35,583 nucleotides of DNA from a virus: positions 1-35,583 of IMG/VR virus record IMGVR_UViG_3300028384_000582, one strand, 5' to 3'. Each line of letters opens with the position of its first letter. The stretch's first letter is position 1. The notes beneath the pieces were generated by a model that saw only the letters and a list, made by a program, of their open reading frames with translations, was not told where the DNA came from and did not search any database. Below, one piece after another: positions 1-35,583 of this stretch. The position numbers and the translations under genes were made by a program.

Positions 1-29
1 GGTAAGATACTCTTAAATTGATTGATTTT

Positions 30-54
30 AAGCCCGCTTAATGCGGGCTTTTTT
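30..54 (+). terminator. Rho-independent terminator in left repeat
   Basis: Stem AAGCCCGC (30-37), loop TTAAT, stem GCGGGCTT (43-50), then a T run to 54. The right repeat has the same hairpin at 35209-35233 directly after a gene, which suggests that this copy also terminates a gene lying upstream of the window. Confidence 0.85.
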
Positions 55-162
55 GTTGGCTATAATTTACCATCTTGAAACAATCTAAACCCCGTTAAAA
101 GCTACTTAAAAAGCCTACAAAGATAAGCCACAACATACAGCCTAAGCCATAAAGCCCATATT

Positions 163-184
163 AGCCCTTTAGAGGGCTTTTTTT
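163..184 (+). terminator. Second terminator-like hairpin in left repeat
   Basis: Stem AGCCCT (163-168), loop TTAG, stem AGGGCT (173-178), then six T residues. The right copy has a hairpin at the same place with a different stem register (AAGCCC with GGGCTT, 35341-35358). Pairing is therefore kept although the bases differ. Confidence 0.6.
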
Positions 185-480
185 GTGTCCGGTGGTATCC
201 TAATACCAATTAAATAATATAGTTCGTTAGATGGCTTTGAAATAGGCTTAAATCGTTTATTTGATTGATTGTAAACGATTGAGATTGCCGAAGGTGTAAA
301 AAATACAAATTAAATCAGATTGAACAATACCGGCTTTTCATCTAAGGGTTAACACTACATCCGGCGCGCGCTTTCGATTGCTTTTGTATAGGTCAATATT
401 AAGCCGCTGTATAGTTCTTTTGACGTAAAATGCGCTTCATGTCTGGGAGTAACCCACTCTAATGAATTCAACCGGTTTTC

Positions 481-516
481 GAAACACCAACCCCTTTAAG
501 GGGGGTGGGTTGTTTC
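481..516. other. Long G/C-tract hairpin
   Basis: The left arm 481-494 (GAAACACCAACCCC) pairs with 500-516 (GGGGGGTGGGTTGTTTC) with small bulges, around loop TTTAA. It resembles the abundant CCCCTTTAAGGGG-type intergenic hairpins of Bacteroidetes chromosomes (from memory). There is no T run, so it is not an obvious terminator. Confidence 0.6.
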
Positions 517-559
517 TACAGAAAGTTATAAGGGGGGGTGCCTGAAAAATAAATATATT

Positions 560-634
560 AGCCCCGCCTATTAGCTTTAAAATTTTAGTTATGCTCGGTA
601 GGTTGAATATCTGTTGGGGCTGTTCGAAAGCTAA
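560..634 (+). ncRNA. Possible H-type pseudoknot in leader region
   Basis: Two perfect complementary pairs interleave: AGCCCC (560-565) with GGGGCT (616-621), and TTAGCTTT (571-578) with AAAGCTAA (627-634). The order 1-2-1'-2' is that of a pseudoknot. A purine-rich AAGGA (636-640) and an ATG (647) follow closely. It could be a regulatory RNA element or chance complementarity in an intergenic region. Confidence 0.3.
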
Positions 635-646
635 AAAGGAATACAG

Positions 647-733
647 ATGCAATTACTACGAAGTCTTGATTTAGCCGAACCAAGTGCCGGTGTAGACACA
701 AGTTTAGGACCATTTAGCTATCCTCGCTATTAG
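647..733 (+). CDS. Possible 28-residue leader peptide
   Basis: The ATG at 647 opens 28 codons ending TAG at 731-733. The peptide starts MQLLRSLDLAEPSAG and ends GPFSYPRY. It has an AAGGA six bases upstream, unusual for this genome where Shine-Dalgarno sites are nearly absent, and it follows a possible pseudoknot. No homologue is recognised. It may be a leader peptide, a decayed gene start or chance. Confidence 0.22.
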   Translation: MQLLRSLDLAEPSAGVDTSLGPFSYPRY

Positions 734-849
734 TATAACTCAAAGGTACTATTTTTGTTTTACGGTTTTAGGCTATTTACTGTAATTTGTATTTAGACTA
801 ATTCTAAATAAGCATATGTTACAAAAATCAAAAAATTAGTTATCATATT

Positions 850-1569
850 ATGAAGTTAGAATTGAGGGTAGACGTACCGCAATCTTTGTCCGGAATAAAG
901 TTACACCAATACCAAAAGTATGTGAAGCTTCTGAAGGATACTGACACAGAGAATAAGGAAAGCAACGAGTTTGTTAATCTTAAAGCATTGGAAATATTCT
1001 GCGGTTTACAGCTAAAGGATAGTTATAAACTGCCTATAAGCACGTTTGACTCTGTTTTGCAACAGGTCAACGTTTGTTTAAATGAGGATACGCCATTAGT
1101 TAAGCGGTTCTGGTTTAGAGGGTCTAATGATGTGGAAGTAGAATACGGGATGATACCTAACATTCACGAAATGAGTTTTGGTGAGTATATAGACTTAGAG
1201 TCTTATATCTCTGATTGGACTAAAATGCATAAGGCGATGGCTATATTGTTTAGACCTATAACGGCTAAGAGTAAGGATATGTACAAAATAGAGGAATACG
1301 AGTCCTCAGACAAGTATTCCGATACGATGAAGTATATGCCGGTTAATGTTACTTTAGGTGCCATTGTTTTTTTTTATCGTTTAGGGATGAAGTTGTCAAA
1401 TCATACGACGAATTATATGTACAATCAACTGACGGAGGAAGAGCGCTCAAGAGTAGAGAGCAAGTTTTTGGAGAAAAATGGGGTTGGTATCAATCAGTTT
1501 ATGCAATCGCTCAAGGAGACCTCACAAAGTTTCAAGAAATTACAAGACTTCCCTACTATTCGTGTTTGA
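850..1569 (+). CDS. Tail assembly chaperone, short (unshifted) product
   Basis: A 239-residue protein at the head of the tail operon. In siphoviruses this place, two or more genes ahead of the tape measure, is held by the tail assembly chaperone, which coats the tape measure while the tube polymerises. The middle (about 95-190, with motif GAIVFFYRLG near 174-183) resembles chaperones of Bacteroidetes phages as I remember them. The gene has a run of nine T at 1367-1375. Beyond it the -1 frame stays open to 1643, so this ORF and a longer frameshift product are likely both made, as with lambda G and GT. The start is ATG, preceded by TTAGTTATCATATT. Role is inferred from position and the frameshift; no search was run. 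Confidence 0.7.
   Translation: MKLELRVDVPQSLSGIKLHQYQKYVKLLKDTDTENKESNEFVNLKALEIFCGLQLKDSYKLPISTFDSVLQQVNVCLNEDTPLVKRFWFRGSNDVEVEYGMIPNIHEMSFGEYIDLESYISDWTKMHKAMAILFRPITAKSKDMYKIEEYESSDKYSDTMKYMPVNVTLGAIVFFYRLGMKLSNHTTNYMYNQLTEEERSRVESKFLEKNGVGINQFMQSLKETSQSFKKLQDFPTIRV
1368..1374 (+). other. Putative -1 ribosomal frameshift site T_TTT_TTT
   Basis: In the chaperone frame the codons here read GTT TTT TTT TAT, which gives the ideal slippery heptamer T TTT TTT inside T9 (1367-1375). The -1 frame has a stop at 1344-1346, opens at 1347 and stays open to a stop at 1644-1646. It thus becomes available only 21 nt before the site. I did not find a clear downstream stimulatory stem. Confidence 0.65.
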
Positions 1570-6010: not shown

Positions 6011-7721
6011 TGTAAAAACTATGCTACTTAGGGTCGATGTCGATTCTTCGGGCGCGATAGTCAATATGAAAGACTTGAACGCTCAGTTGAAAGATATGGG
6101 CGTTAACACTAAGCAAGCTATTAAAGACTTAGACAACCTAGAGGGTAAGATTAAGGATAATGGAAGCGCGGCGGGAGTTGCTGGAGCGGCTACAACAGAA
6201 TTTGGTAGATTGCTATCTGATTTGCCTTATGGTATACAGGGTGTTGCCAACAACCTTTCGCAGTTAGGTTCAATGTTTGCTCTTTTGGTTCAAAAGACAG
6301 GTAGCGCAAAAGAGGCTTTAAACTCTATGCTCGATGTTGTCTACAAAGGAGGTAAGATTACAGCTACAGGGGTTTTAATCGGGTTTCAAGCCGTTGTTGC
6401 CATAATAGAGATGGTGAGTAAGCATATGAGTAAAGCGGCTAAAGAAACAGACGAGTCTTTAGAGCGAATGAGAGAAGCGGCAACGACTGCCGCTTTAGAC
6501 TTTGAGAAGCTGAAAATATTGGCTGATATAGCCCAAGACAGTACTCAAGAATTAGAAATTCAGCAAGGTGCGTTAGAAGATTTGAAAGAGATGGGTTTTG
6601 ACCCCGCTACTCAGTCTATAAAAGACTTCTTAAAAGAACAAGAAAAACTGTTAATTGCAAGAGCCGCTTCAAAAGCTTTAGAAGAAGAGTTAGGTGATAT
6701 AATTAAACAAGAGATTGTAAACAGAGTAGCGCAAAAAAAGGCGCTGAGCGAGTTGATAACAATGCGACAGGAAAACCAAGCGTTAACAGGTTCTCAAGAA
6801 GCTGTAATTGATGAACTGAAGAAGCAAAAAGACGCTCTTGAAGAAAGGAAGAACGAACTAAAAAGAGCCTTGAAGGAAAGTATGATGGACATCATTCTGT
6901 TCGGAGATGGGGACCCTACTAAGGTTGGTAAAAACTTAACAAAAAAAATACGTAAGATAAAGCCAAGACTATTGCTTTTTTCTGAACTAGTAGACCCTTT
7001 GAAGCTTGATGCTGAAACCGGAGAAGGTCTTATAGAAAAAATTGTAGTCAACCAAGAAAAAAGAATGTTGACGTTTGAAGAGACTCTTGAATTATCGAGG
7101 GAGTTGATGATGGGATTCTCTGATTTCTTAACTAGTGAAGCGGACAGAGAGATAGCGATAGAGCAAAACAAAACCAACAGGATAAACGAACAACTAAGGG
7201 AGAGGCTGAGAAATGAAAGCTTAACAGCTAAACAAAGAGGCGCTATTAATAATCAGATTGCAAAGAATGATGCTAAGTTAGTTCAGAAAGAGAATGAAAT
7301 TGCAAAAAAACGCTTTAAACAGCAAAAAGCGGCGGCTATTGCAAATGCATTGATTAATACTTATTTGGCCGCATCTAAAGTTATGACTAACCCTACAGAC
7401 TTAAACCCTGTGGCTATAGCTATAAAGGTGGCGGCAACTATTGCTATGGGATTAATGCAAGTTGCGGCTATTGCAAGACAGCAATTTACTCCTAAAACAT
7501 CCGGAGCCGGAGGAAGAGCATCTGGAGGTCAAAGCGGAGGTGGAGGCGGCGGAAGAGGAACCTCTGTATTTAATGTAGTAGGTGCTTCTGAGTTAAATCA
7601 AGTCGCTGAAGCGGTTGCGGGTCAACGAGAGGACCCTGTTAGGGCTTATGTTGTTGCTTCTGAAGTATCTACGGTGCAAGAATTAGACAGAAACATCGTA
7701 TCCGAAGCATCTATAGGGTAA
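5997..7721 (+). CDS. Tail tape measure protein
   Basis: A 574-residue, helix-rich protein. The N-terminus (about 1-60) is coiled coil, and the motif TTEFGRLLSDLPYGIQGVAN (about 66-85) recurs in tape measures of Bacteroidetes phages. Hydrophobic segments lie at about 115-145 and 440-490, long charged coiled coils at about 150-440, and a Gly-rich linker at about 495-525. These are the usual tape measure features: a scaffold that sets tail length and is ejected with the DNA. At roughly 0.15 nm per residue it predicts a short tail of about 85 nm. No lysozyme or peptidase insert is seen. The start is ATG 5997, inside the preceding small ORF. Confidence 0.8.
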   Translation: MANTDVKTMLLRVDVDSSGAIVNMKDLNAQLKDMGVNTKQAIKDLDNLEGKIKDNGSAAGVAGAATTEFGRLLSDLPYGIQGVANNLSQLGSMFALLVQKTGSAKEALNSMLDVVYKGGKITATGVLIGFQAVVAIIEMVSKHMSKAAKETDESLERMREAATTAALDFEKLKILADIAQDSTQELEIQQGALEDLKEMGFDPATQSIKDFLKEQEKLLIARAASKALEEELGDIIKQEIVNRVAQKKALSELITMRQENQALTGSQEAVIDELKKQKDALEERKNELKRALKESMMDIILFGDGDPTKVGKNLTKKIRKIKPRLLLFSELVDPLKLDAETGEGLIEKIVVNQEKRMLTFEETLELSRELMMGFSDFLTSEADREIAIEQNKTNRINEQLRERLRNESLTAKQRGAINNQIAKNDAKLVQKENEIAKKRFKQQKAAAIANALINTYLAASKVMTNPTDLNPVAIAIKVAATIAMGLMQVAAIARQQFTPKTSGAGGRASGGQSGGGGGGRGTSVFNVVGASELNQVAEAVAGQREDPVRAYVVASEVSTVQELDRNIVSEASIG

Positions 7722-21587: not shown

Positions 21588-22397
21588 ATGGCAGTAAATA
21601 ACAACGCAACACCAAAAACATCTACAAGGGTGTCTTCTACTTCAGTAGATGGACTTCAGCACGACAACAATACTATGGCGGTATTGGAATTTACAAGTAA
21701 TAGGTCGGGTCAACAATTAACTTACGAAGACCCTTTTGCAACCTTTTACCCTTCATATTACAATTTAGCTTATGAAATAGAAGGAGACACAGATAGCAAC
21801 GAGGTTCGTTCATACCCTTCGTGGTTCGAATTAAATCAAAGTTACTATACATTTCCTGCTAACTTAACACCTTCAGACGGTTGGTATGGTGGAGATACTA
21901 TTACATTAGATAATGGTATTTATGAGTTTAATATTTTTTGCGTTACACAGAGTAGACAATATAACGCATCAAGTTATGCGACGAATTTTATGGAAGCGCC
22001 CGCTTTACAACATTGGTTTACAGGAGTAGAAGATTTTGCGGGAGATTTATCAGACCAAGAGGGGTGGTATGATAACGCATATTTAACTTTATTACACGAA
22101 CAGGATATAGACAGCGAAAAGATAAAACAATGGCACGGAAAGTTTACTTTTAGTTTTTCAGATAAAATAGGTAGTAAAGCACATTTTAGATTGAGATTAG
22201 ATGCCCTTAATGGAGGTACAACTTTTACCGACCAAGCGTTTTGTAAGGCGGAATTGTTTGCCGGTGGACTTAATTTTAGAAATTTTACAGGAAATACTAC
22301 GGGAATAATTAGTTATAATTATGCCTTTAGAACTTTAGTAGAAGTTAAAAGAATAAGTGGTAAGGCTGACTCAGCTTGGGATTACTATCACATATAA
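21588..22397 (+). CDS. Unknown strand-rich protein in the lysis region
   Basis: A 269-residue protein without signal peptide or membrane segment. It has many aromatic residues and alternating polar/hydrophobic strands (TITLDNGIYEFNIFC, near 105-119; HGKFTFSFSDKIGSKAHFRL near 183-202). The texture is that of a phage structural or carbohydrate-binding domain rather than an enzyme. The stop overlaps the endolysin ATG (TAATG), so they are coupled. It could be a virion protein, perhaps a C1q-like tail domain. No family recognised. Confidence 0.5.
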   Translation: MAVNNNATPKTSTRVSSTSVDGLQHDNNTMAVLEFTSNRSGQQLTYEDPFATFYPSYYNLAYEIEGDTDSNEVRSYPSWFELNQSYYTFPANLTPSDGWYGGDTITLDNGIYEFNIFCVTQSRQYNASSYATNFMEAPALQHWFTGVEDFAGDLSDQEGWYDNAYLTLLHEQDIDSEKIKQWHGKFTFSFSDKIGSKAHFRLRLDALNGGTTFTDQAFCKAELFAGGLNFRNFTGNTTGIISYNYAFRTLVEVKRISGKADSAWDYYHI

Positions 22398-22756
22398 TGA
22401 AGTTTAAGTATTTCTCATATGAGGAATTTGACTCTCCCGATATACAAGGGAGCGGTCAAATGATGAGTGATGTTTTTGTTACTATGTTAGATAACGTTAG
22501 AGAGGAATACGGACAACCTATAAGAATTAACAGCGGGTTCAGAACTGAGTCTTATAACCAAGAGGTAGGAGGAGTCAAAAACTCCTCTCACCTCATTGGG
22601 CTTGCGGCGGACCTAAAAATAAAAAACGGTAAAGAGCGGTTTAAATTAGTCAAGCTTTTGATGAAGCACGGCTTTAACAGAATAGGTTTGGGAAAAACCT
22701 TCATTCACGTAGACATAGACAGTTCTAAGACGCCGAATACTATTTGGACCTACTAA
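22397..22756 (+). CDS. Endolysin, M15 family peptidase
   Basis: A 119-residue protein starting at ATG 22397, at the last base of the preceding stop; an in-frame TTG at 22376 is less likely. It shows the M15 zinc peptidase signatures: INSGFRTESYN (44-54, Arg49), SSHLIGLAADL (63-73, ligands His65 and Asp72) and FIHVDID (102-108, His104 and Asp106). These enzymes cut peptide stems of peptidoglycan (L-Ala-D-Glu or D-Ala-D-Ala type). It has no wall-binding domain or signal peptide, so it needs a holin for release. A degraded paralogue lies at 23570. Two copies of a 15-bp repeat follow directly. Confidence 0.85.
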   Translation: MKFKYFSYEEFDSPDIQGSGQMMSDVFVTMLDNVREEYGQPIRINSGFRTESYNQEVGGVKNSSHLIGLAADLKIKNGKERFKLVKLLMKHGFNRIGLGKTFIHVDIDSSKTPNTIWTY

Positions 22757-23569: not shown

Positions 23570-23941
23570 ATGGGTGATACAGAAGGTTTACGGGTTCTTA
23601 AATGGTCAATGTTCGATAGTCCGGATTCTGAGGGTAGCGGTTATAAGTTTATGGAACGGGAACCGGTTGTTGCTCTTGACAGAGTTTGCCATAAATACAG
23701 AATTACACCTACAATACTATTAGGTTATACATCTAAGTCTGTTGCGGATAAAATGTATCTTACGACAAACGACTCCCACAGAGTCGGAATGGCGGTAAGA
23801 CTACAATGCAAACATTACCGGAAAAGAATAAAAATGATACGGGGATTAATGGAGGAAGGTGTTACCAGATTTGCTATGAGTAAGGATACTTTGTACTTCG
23901 ATACAGACCCGCTCAAACCTCCCGCTTTCTACTATTGGTGA
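23570..23941 (+). CDS. Catalytically degraded M15 paralogue of the endolysin
   Basis: A 123-residue protein colinear with the endolysin at 22397. FDSPDSEGSG (15-24) mirrors FDSPDIQGSG, SHRVGMAVRL (69-78) mirrors SHLIGLAADL, a charged helix follows in both, and LYFDTD (108-113) mirrors IHVDID. Key residues are lost: the Arg of the SGFR motif is Thr54, the zinc-binding Asp is Arg77, and the second His is Tyr109. One His (70) and the final Asp residues remain. It should fold but not bind zinc or cut peptidoglycan. It has its own upstream promoter and a hairpin just before its start. It may be a peptidoglycan-binding or lysis-regulating protein; that is inference. Confidence 0.65.
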   Translation: MGDTEGLRVLKWSMFDSPDSEGSGYKFMEREPVVALDRVCHKYRITPTILLGYTSKSVADKMYLTTNDSHRVGMAVRLQCKHYRKRIKMIRGLMEEGVTRFAMSKDTLYFDTDPLKPPAFYYW

Positions 23942-31080: not shown

Positions 31081-31459
31081 GATAAAAAAGACGGATGGCC
31101 GGAGGTACAACCGAAGGCTACCGTCTAAGGTTAAATTGGATGGCAACATTACAAGTGTGCCGGCAAAGATGAACGATGCAAAAAAGAATCGTATCAGTAC
31201 CTACAGCGTAAATGCAATCAAGGAAGTTTTTGGTAGCGAGCAAGAAGCCTTAGCGATGCTTGCCGAACAAGCCAAAGATAGCTTCCCTCATTTAAAACTA
31301 CTTTTAGAATACGCATACGGCAAGGCCGGAGAACAAGTAGATAATTCCAATAAAGGAAGAAAGGTTGCTCCGGTAATTAACTTTATAACAACAGAACCGT
31401 CTAAAGTCGAAGAGGAGATAATAGATGTCGAATCAGAAGATATAGAAGATGAACAATAA
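31055..31459 (+). CDS. Terminase small subunit (probable)
   Basis: A 134-residue protein. It has a Lys-rich N-terminus (MAKKKKSDEIKKTDGRR), a helical DNA-recognition-like middle (NAIKEVFGSEQEALAMLAEQ, about 52-71; HLKLLLEYAYGKAGEQ, about 79-94) and an acidic C-terminus (VEEEIIDVESEDIEDEQ). The domain order and size fit small terminases, which select phage DNA for packaging. The EYAYGK motif is frequent in those of Bacteroidetes phages. It overlaps the large subunit gene by 11 nt. Confidence 0.65.
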   Translation: MAKKKKSDEIKKTDGRRYNRRLPSKVKLDGNITSVPAKMNDAKKNRISTYSVNAIKEVFGSEQEALAMLAEQAKDSFPHLKLLLEYAYGKAGEQVDNSNKGRKVAPVINFITTEPSKVEEEIIDVESEDIEDEQ

Positions 31460-32675
31460 ATCAGCACAGATAAACATAGCGCCAAAGTATGTTCCTTTGT
31501 TTCAAGACCCTTCCCGATACTTTATTATTGTAGGGGGTCGAGGGTCCGGAAAATCTTTTGCGGTTGCTGTGTTTCTTTTAAACCTAACATTCGAAGAAGG
31601 AACTAAAGCTTTATTTACAAGATATACAATGAGTGCGGCTAACACTTCAATCATACCGGAGTTTATCGAGAAGATTGAAATGATGGGCTACAATGATTTA
31701 TTTCGAATCACCAAAGATGAGATAATAAATCTACACACAGGGAGCAGTATTTTATTCAAAGGTATCCGAACATCATCTGGCAACCAAACAGCCGCTCTGA
31801 AGTCTCTAAATAACATCTCGGTGTTTTGCGTAGACGAGGCGGAGGAACTTACCGACGAGGCTACATTTGACAAGATTGATTTCTCGGTTAGAACTCAGAA
31901 CAAGCAAAACAGATGTATTTTAATATTGAATCCTACAAGTAAAGAGCATTGGATATACAAGCGCTTTTACGAGACCAGAGGAATACCGGAGAACTACAAT
32001 GGCATTGTTGAGGATGCTACGTACATACACACAACTTACAAGGATAACGTAGATAATCTATCCGACTCTTTTGTTAAGCAGATTAATTTAATGAAGAAGG
32101 AAAGGCCGGATAAGTATATGCACCAGATGCTCGGTTCTTGGCTGTCTAAGGCAGAAGGAGTTATCATTAAGAATTGGAAGGTTGGAGATTATCAGCAACC
32201 AGAACTCACGGTGTTCGCACAGGATTTTGGATTTAGCAAGGATTTGACAACGCTTGTTCAGCTATCCGTAGATAGCGAGAAGAAGCAGTTGTGGGTTAGA
32301 GAATGTTTTGGCGAGACTCAACTCACCACTTCAGATATTGCATTTAAGAACAGACAATTCTGCGGTACAGATTTAATCATTGGAGACTCAAGTGAGAGTC
32401 GTTTGATTACAGAACTGAAGAAGATGGACATTAACATAAAGCCGGCGGTAAAGAAAAAGGGTTCTATCCTTTCCGGCATCGCTTTGATGCAAGACTATCA
32501 AATCATAGTAGACAAACAATCTCACGGGATTATGAAGGAGTTCAATAATTATGTTTGGAAAGACAGAGGCGGGGTTACTCCGGTTGATAACTACAATCAC
32601 TTTGTAGATGCCATAAGATATGGGTTAGAATATCTAGTTAGAGGAAAGTCTTTGGGCAGATATGTAGTTAGATAG
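31449..32675 (+). CDS. terL: Terminase large subunit
   Basis: A 408-residue packaging ATPase and nuclease. Walker A GGRGSGKS (29-36), Walker B VFCVDEAEE (125-133; catalytic Glu130) and the coupling motif LNPTSKEHW (160-168) form the motor. The nuclease metal residues are Asp259 (AQDFGFSKD), Asp313 (IIGDSSESR) and Asp387 (DAIRYG). It resembles the PBSX/Terminase_3 type. It binds the portal, although the portal gene is about 18 kb upstream in this map. The length is normal. It is followed by a new promoter. Confidence 0.95.
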   Translation: MNNKSAQINIAPKYVPLFQDPSRYFIIVGGRGSGKSFAVAVFLLNLTFEEGTKALFTRYTMSAANTSIIPEFIEKIEMMGYNDLFRITKDEIINLHTGSSILFKGIRTSSGNQTAALKSLNNISVFCVDEAEELTDEATFDKIDFSVRTQNKQNRCILILNPTSKEHWIYKRFYETRGIPENYNGIVEDATYIHTTYKDNVDNLSDSFVKQINLMKKERPDKYMHQMLGSWLSKAEGVIIKNWKVGDYQQPELTVFAQDFGFSKDLTTLVQLSVDSEKKQLWVRECFGETQLTTSDIAFKNRQFCGTDLIIGDSSESRLITELKKMDINIKPAVKKKGSILSGIALMQDYQIIVDKQSHGIMKEFNNYVWKDRGGVTPVDNYNHFVDAIRYGLEYLVRGKSLGRYVVR

Positions 32676-33674: not shown

Positions 33675-33829
33675 CCCCCCTTGAATTTGGTTTCTCTGGC
33701 CATTTTCGCGCAAAATTTGCGCGGGCTGTGTATAGGTCGGGCTGTACCGGTTGTATAGGTAAATTTACCCTAGCCGGCAAGCTAGAACACCACTACATTT
33801 TGACTATGTGGCGGTATAAAAATACGCTC

Positions 33830-33854
33830 CTATTGTAACAATATAATACAATAG
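33830..33854. promoter_or_regulatory. 25-bp inverted repeat, copy 1 (operator-like)
   Basis: Arms CTATTGTA (33830-33837) and TACAATAG (33847-33854) flank the centre ACAATATAA. The arms are identical to those of copy 2 at 33874, centre to centre 44 bp (about four helical turns), so dimers could bind on the same face. Confidence 0.75.
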
Positions 33855-33873
33855 CAAAGCTTGATTTTTAAGC

Positions 33874-33898
33874 CTATTGTAACAATATGATACAATAG
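33874..33898. promoter_or_regulatory. 25-bp inverted repeat, copy 2 (operator-like)
   Basis: Arms CTATTGTA (33874-33881) and TACAATAG (33891-33898) around ACAATATGA. One base differs from copy 1, in the centre. It lies just downstream of the possible leftward promoter's start. Confidence 0.75.
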
Positions 33899-33910
33899 CC
33901 ATATTTCACA

Positions 33911-34047: not shown

Positions 34048-35184
34048 ATGAGTAACTTAAACACTACCGCTTCAATCAAGCATTTAGCCGAAACGATTAA
34101 AAAAGCAAAATCTACCCGGTGCAGTATTTATCTATACTATGGCAATTTTGCAGATTATACCCATATTGACAATAGAAGCACTATCGAAGCCATGAGTATA
34201 GACGGTGATTTTCTTAATGTTCCAATGATGACTAATAGAGGGTATGAACTATATTCAAGGCGTTATCCCTTGAAAGGGCTTTACATTGCCATTAAGCAAC
34301 GTTCACAACGGCACTTAGTAGATTCTAAAAACGTATTATCTAGAGCCATTACAGACGTGATGAATCCGGACGATGATATATTTTACAATAGCAATAATTT
34401 AGAACACGCGCTACAATATTCTACTAATGAAATGACTTCAAATTATACTTTCAACGATGCTTGTATAGCTACTTTTAACCCCGCAAATAAACCTTTGCTA
34501 TTCTTAGAGGATGGAAGCAAGTATACAAGGGCATTCCAACAAATTAAAATAGGTAAAGCCGTTCGCAGTATCTGTAACGATGTTTTAAATATGGGTTTAA
34601 GTGATTCGAACGTTGAAGCTATCACAAACCGGATAAAATCACAATTTGCCCCTATTGAGATTTTAACAAGTGGTAACGTTGCTGAGGTTTACGCGCTCAA
34701 TCATGGCACGCGCTCCGAATGTGGCACGCTTGCAGATTCTTGCATGAGGGGTAAAAGTGAATTTTATCAAGACCTCAGCAGTTCCGAAAATTGTAAGGTA
34801 CTTTATTCGCTTAACTGCGATGGTGAACTAATTGCGCGCGCTTTGTTGTGGTCTACCGCTTGCGGTAAGATGGTGATGGATAGGATATATGGTACAGATG
34901 CTAACGTACTCAAGTTTATTGAGTTCGCTAAAGGTCAAGGCTACTACTACAAGTACGAGCAAAACTACTCCAATACGTCGGAGTTCGTGAATCCTACAAC
35001 AGGTGAAAAAGAAAATCTATACATGGATATAGAAATTAATGAATTAGATACGTACAATTCGCCATTCATGGATACCTTCCATTATTATAATGAGAATGAC
35101 GTCATGTATTACTTGAGTAATGAAAATAATTCAGATACTACACACACACTTAGAGAAACTGACGGCACCGCCTCGACGTGGTAA
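34048..35184 (+). CDS. Conserved phage protein of unknown function
   Basis: A 378-residue protein next to the right terminal repeat. The N-terminal two thirds are mixed helix/strand without a known motif. Residues about 225-300 have LNHGTRSECGTLADSCMRGK, then ENCKVLYSLNCDGELIARAL, LWSTACGKMVMDRIYGTD and FIEFAKGQGYYYKY. This Cys-rich SCMR...RALLW...MDRIY block recurs in uncharacterised proteins of many tailed phages, as I remember it. Its conservation and the cysteines suggest a folded enzyme-like or metal/redox domain, but none can be named. The first bases of the window equal the end of this gene (TGG TAA), so a paralogue may lie before the left repeat. A terminator follows. Confidence 0.6.
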   Translation: MSNLNTTASIKHLAETIKKAKSTRCSIYLYYGNFADYTHIDNRSTIEAMSIDGDFLNVPMMTNRGYELYSRRYPLKGLYIAIKQRSQRHLVDSKNVLSRAITDVMNPDDDIFYNSNNLEHALQYSTNEMTSNYTFNDACIATFNPANKPLLFLEDGSKYTRAFQQIKIGKAVRSICNDVLNMGLSDSNVEAITNRIKSQFAPIEILTSGNVAEVYALNHGTRSECGTLADSCMRGKSEFYQDLSSSENCKVLYSLNCDGELIARALLWSTACGKMVMDRIYGTDANVLKFIEFAKGQGYYYKYEQNYSNTSEFVNPTTGEKENLYMDIEINELDTYNSPFMDTFHYYNENDVMYYLSNENNSDTTHTLRETDGTASTW

Positions 35185-35208
35185 GATACTCTTAAATTGA
35201 TTGATTTT

Positions 35209-35233
35209 AAGCCCGCTTTATGCGGGCTTTTTT
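35209..35233 (+). terminator. Rho-independent terminator in right repeat
   Basis: Stem AAGCCCGC (35209-35216), loop TTTAT, stem GCGGGCTT (35222-35229), then T to 35233. It lies 24 nt after the stop of the terminal gene. Confidence 0.9.
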
Positions 35234-35340
35234 ATTGGCTATAGGTCAACACCTTTGAACCGCTTAAAAGCTGTTAGAGGCTACCCAATAAGCCCACAAA
35301 TATAGCCCGCAATACATAGCCTAAGCAATAAAGCCTATAT

Positions 35341-35360
35341 AAGCCCGTTTAAGGGCTTTT
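35341..35360 (+). terminator. Second terminator-like hairpin in right repeat
   Basis: Stem AAGCCC (35341-35346) and GGGCTT (35353-35358) around GTTTAA, then TTCTT. It is the counterpart of the left hairpin at 163-178, with shifted pairing. Confidence 0.5.
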
Positions 35361-35583
35361 CTTATGCTCGGTGGTATCCTAATATCAATTAAATAATATA
35401 GTTCATTAGATAGCTTTGAAATAGGCTTAAATGCTTTATTTGATTGATTGTAAACGATTGAGATTGCCGAAGGTGTAAAAAATACAAATCATTTCTAATT
35501 GATTGAAACCGGCTTTTCTTCTAGGGATAACCACTACAGCCGGCGCGCGCTTTCGATTGCTTTTGTATAGGTCAATATTAAGC

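Follow-up and report, generated by a model that had tools for sequence, protein, structure and literature searches.

We analyzed the complete IMG/VR virus record IMGVR_UViG_3300028384_000582 (the window; 35,583 bp, G+C content 39%), whose PHROG family matches include a terminase, a portal and a virion structural protein. The gene for the terminase large subunit (31449..32675, + strand) served as the anchor for finding relatives. By this protein, the nearest isolates are the Nonlabens phages P12024S and P12024L (35.7 kb, 49.5% identity), IMG/VR contains 37 related loci from uncultured contigs (the best at 73-74% identity), and a scan of bacterial genomes returned a single distant relative, in an uncultured Psychroflexus genome. 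The phage is placed among P12024-like phages (Inhavirus relatives) by its terminase, portal, capsid and tail genes, which are homologous to theirs and keep their order. These terminase relatives and the genome size of P12024S/L indicate that the window is close to one unit genome of the group. At the DNA level, a query with the first 8 kb of the window revealed no similarity to phage records, including P12024S/L, and no Rfam family was found anywhere in the window.

The two ends of the window carry copies of one block, at 1..404 and 35180..35583 (both + strand). They align in register at 404 of 404 positions with 59 substitutions and no indel, from the very first to the very last base of the record. 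The earlier note had put the difference at about 59 mismatches and about 85% identity over 404 bp by hand count, and a script gave exactly 59 and 85.4%. Queried with the left copy, the record yielded these two places only (E-value of the right copy, 6e-133), the next best-scoring self-match in the window being only 47 bp long. The block comprises the last five bases of a gene (ending at 35184 in the right copy), a terminator, a variable spacer, a second terminator and a conserved stretch. The copies agree fully over the first 39 and the last 44 bases; the mismatches cluster at positions 65-189 and 311-360, with just five within 190-310. Exact words of the block had no match in IMG/VR.

Two hairpins are preserved between the copies. 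An intrinsic terminator lies just past the stop codon (30..54, + strand; hairpin 30-50 and a T run) and has its counterpart at 35209-35233, the hairpins 30-50 and 35209-35229 differing by one loop change. A second terminator-like hairpin with a T run (163..185, + strand; hairpin 163-178) corresponds to 35341-35364, and here the stem is kept although its sequence has changed (35341-35358 in the right copy). The observation that hairpins persist despite base changes thus holds for both pairs, with a T run after each. A third hairpin candidate, near 193-208, was no better than shuffled sequence and was rejected. The conserved hairpins are predicted transcription terminators; their persistence despite substitutions is expected of selection on a terminator, so no function of the repeat is needed to explain it. 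The block is predicted to end the preceding transcription unit and to lead into the conserved upstream region of the structural genes.

Downstream of the left copy lies a non-coding element (405..849, + strand; ~450 bp) that is not repeated at the right end of the window and is conserved in L008, L012, L013, L020, L024, L035 and other relatives. It contains no convincing gene; a 28-codon ORF at 647 has no matching peptide in the relatives. The element may be a late control region or a packaging site. It is followed by the first gene of the structural block (850..1569, + strand; 239 aa, PHROG 32199), hereafter gene 850, which in relatives follows the terminase block. At the other end, the right copy is preceded by a 378-aa gene (34048..35184, + strand) without a Pfam or PHROG family. 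A search with its protein found nothing in IMG/VR, and none of the related contigs fetched contains a relative; the only relatives, weak and distant, are in the Cellulophaga phages Calle_1 and phi38:1 and in huge uncultured phages (records of 630-740 kb, at several places per record). The last five bases of this gene, GGTAA, are also bases 1-5 of the window.

Several other motifs and genes were observed. The non-coding stretch before the 378-aa gene contains two copies, 44 bp apart, of the near-palindrome CCTATTGTAACAATATNATACAATAGC (33829-33899). An 11-base motif, T[T/A]AACATAGTA, forms arrays of four to seven copies immediately downstream of the terminase, always on the + strand, both in the window (33580, 33619, 33643 and 33664) and in L006-L016, L018-L022 and L024. 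In several places it stands between runs of C and G, for example TACCCCCTTAAACATAGTAGGGGT in L024; further pairs occur in the window after a peptidase-like gene (22765 and 22782) and in L020 (1062 and 13836). The motif looks like a putative clade-specific recognition or processing site. The window genes 22376-22756 and 23570-23941 are neighbours and both match the same regions of G001 (~7250-7599) and G003 (~2190-2550); they seem to be two diverged copies of a single peptidase/endolysin-like gene.

Relatives that span the site possess the orthologous block (gene stop, terminator and spacer) once. In L008, L012 and L024, ~25 bases separate the end of the preceding block's last gene from a terminator-like hairpin and its T run, beyond which a spacer leads into the conserved element that corresponds to window positions 405-850. 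When the stretch before gene 850 was compared with itself in each of 21 relatives, some showed short repeats and none a repeat of block size. In the same intergenic region, another group of relatives (L058-L061, L065, L066, L071 and L072) carries a stretch of ~50 bp twice in tandem, the copies being spaced by 49 bp. Pairwise comparison of seven close relatives gives 69-92% identity for the 180-bp block upstream of the element (21 pairs, median 80%) and 88-95% for the last 900 bases of the terminase gene. Orthologous blocks therefore differ by 8-31% between strains, a range taken from these relatives, and the 15% difference between the copies in the window falls within it as an ordinary strain difference. 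That two strains of this group do share samples is illustrated by L012 and L019, which come from one metagenome (3300025543) and are 91% identical in DNA over the terminase region.

The gene order of relatives joins the two ends of the window. A homologue of gene 850 was found downstream of the terminase in more than 30 related loci, either directly adjacent or up to 5.8 kb away. In the window, gene 850 opens the sequence and the terminase block closes it, and joining the ends restores the order of the relatives, on whose gene map the two contig ends are neighbours; the ends therefore adjoin on a circular map. The resulting distance between terminase and gene 850 is ~3.35 kb with one copy of the block and 3.76 kb with two, which does not discriminate between them against the 3.1-3.7 kb of the nearest group of relatives. 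Four near-complete relatives wrap at other points, quite different from that of the window: G001 (36,784 bp) and G004 (34,069 bp) have exact end overlaps of 100 and 127 bp, G013 (34,464 bp) has an overlap of 211 bp with one mismatch, and G016 (32,876 bp) has 98 identical bp at its ends, followed by two differing end bases. Closure at arbitrary points, with ends that differ in some bases, thus has precedent in this group. Assemblies also tend to break in the neighbouring element, as five contigs end inside it (L006, L007, L011, L024 and L035) and seven cross it. We rejected the idea that the genome has a defined physical end near the element, since the five contig ends lie at spread points and the seven other contigs run through.

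We consider it quite likely that the record is a circular contig overlapping itself by 404 bp, with its two ends derived from two strains and one copy of the block per genome of ~35,179 bp. Although the alignment is real, the repeat is probably no biological feature, and an ordinary assembly effect rather than a new kind of repeat is the most likely source of the two copies. The record would then represent the whole map of a P12024-like flavobacterial phage, closed into a circle and linearized at an intergenic site with the gene ending at 35184 on one side and gene 850 on the other. The assembler would have gone round the circle once and then 404 bp further, so that the left end would carry the allele of one strain and the right end that of the other, co-occurring strain. 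With a 15% difference between the strains in this fast-changing block, the overlap would have gone unrecognized and the record would have been classed as linear. That the sample contained both alleles, and that a genome has only a single copy, is our inference; exact-word searches of IMG/VR, which may not return near-identical records, found no contig of the postulated second strain. Besides the alignment itself, comparison with relatives supports such a strain-mixed wrap-around through the adjacency of the ends, the single block and the matching strain divergence. The earlier note had offered it as one of three explanations, and by synteny, single block and divergence it is the best supported of the three. 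The GGTAA shared by both places is accounted for because a wrap-around reads the same gene end twice. A counter-point is that the identical runs at the block edges are unequal (39 versus 44 bp), whereas a simple two-path bubble would be expected to give equal k-mer overlaps; as an assembler signature, these runs fit no single k and were set aside.

Another of those explanations, in which each genome has two tandem diverged 404-bp terminator blocks and the record is an exact 35,583-bp circle cut at the junction of the copies, is unlikely in our view. In its favour, the two ends would abut precisely, the common 39- and 44-bp runs would interrupt a low-k assembly graph, and some relatives do have short tandem duplications, spaced by ~49 bp, in this intergenic region. 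However, no relative spanning the site has a block-sized repeat that would offer a parallel, the cut must fall exactly between the copies, and k above 44 would have let an assembly read through. That two such blocks, different in sequence and alike in structure, sit between the end of the middle genes and the structural genes is similarly doubtful. At the hypothetical junction of 35583 with 1, the sequence would read ...AATATTAAGC and then GGTAAGATAC...; neither this tandem junction word nor the window's own continuation was found in IMG/VR, so the search does not discriminate between them.

Tailed phages have linear DNA that is often terminally redundant, and the block is located at both ends of the record. 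The copies could on these grounds be fixed direct terminal repeats of a linear virion genome, or the heterozygous terminal redundancy of one molecule after recombination between two parents in one cell; we regard either as very improbable. Packaging regenerates fixed terminal repeats of the T7 type from a single copy, which should make them identical, and the 15% divergence therefore speaks against them, as do the unrelated points at which the relatives wrap. Heterozygous ends are indistinguishable here from a mix of strains, but they require that the contig come from a single molecule. The remaining proposal, that two paralogous gene-plus-repeat modules flank an element and that a relative of the 378-aa gene lies upstream of base 1, draws on GGTAA at the start of the left copy being a gene end, yet it is contradicted by the gene order of relatives, which closes the circle between the window ends, and by the lack of a relative of this protein in the related contigs fetched, which makes it exceedingly unlikely. 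Of the suggestion that GGTAA favours either these modules or a wrap-around, the second half survives, since a wrap-around predicts it, and the first runs against synteny.

The practical consequence is mainly one of curation: the record probably represents a complete circular genome, classed as linear because its overlap carries the alleles of two strains. Such strain-mixed overlaps escape terminal-repeat tests that require the ends to be identical, and the 404-bp strain-mixed tail should be removed before any use of the genome.

Compared with known systems, the block departs from a fixed direct terminal repeat of the T7 type, which has two identical copies, in that 59 of 404 positions differ. 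It resembles the wrap-around overlaps of G001, G004, G013 and G016 in that the start and the end of the contig cover one stretch in register. The overlaps in these relatives are 100-127 bp and exact, or 98-211 bp with one or two differences, whereas that of the window is 404 bp with 59 differences. The Nonlabens (Persicivirga) phages P12024S/L (genus Inhavirus) have a genome of similar size to the window (~35.7 kb) and the same order of capsid, portal, lysis and terminase genes, with the homologue of gene 850 after the terminase. They differ in that this homologue follows the terminase directly, while ~3.4 kb separate the two in the window.
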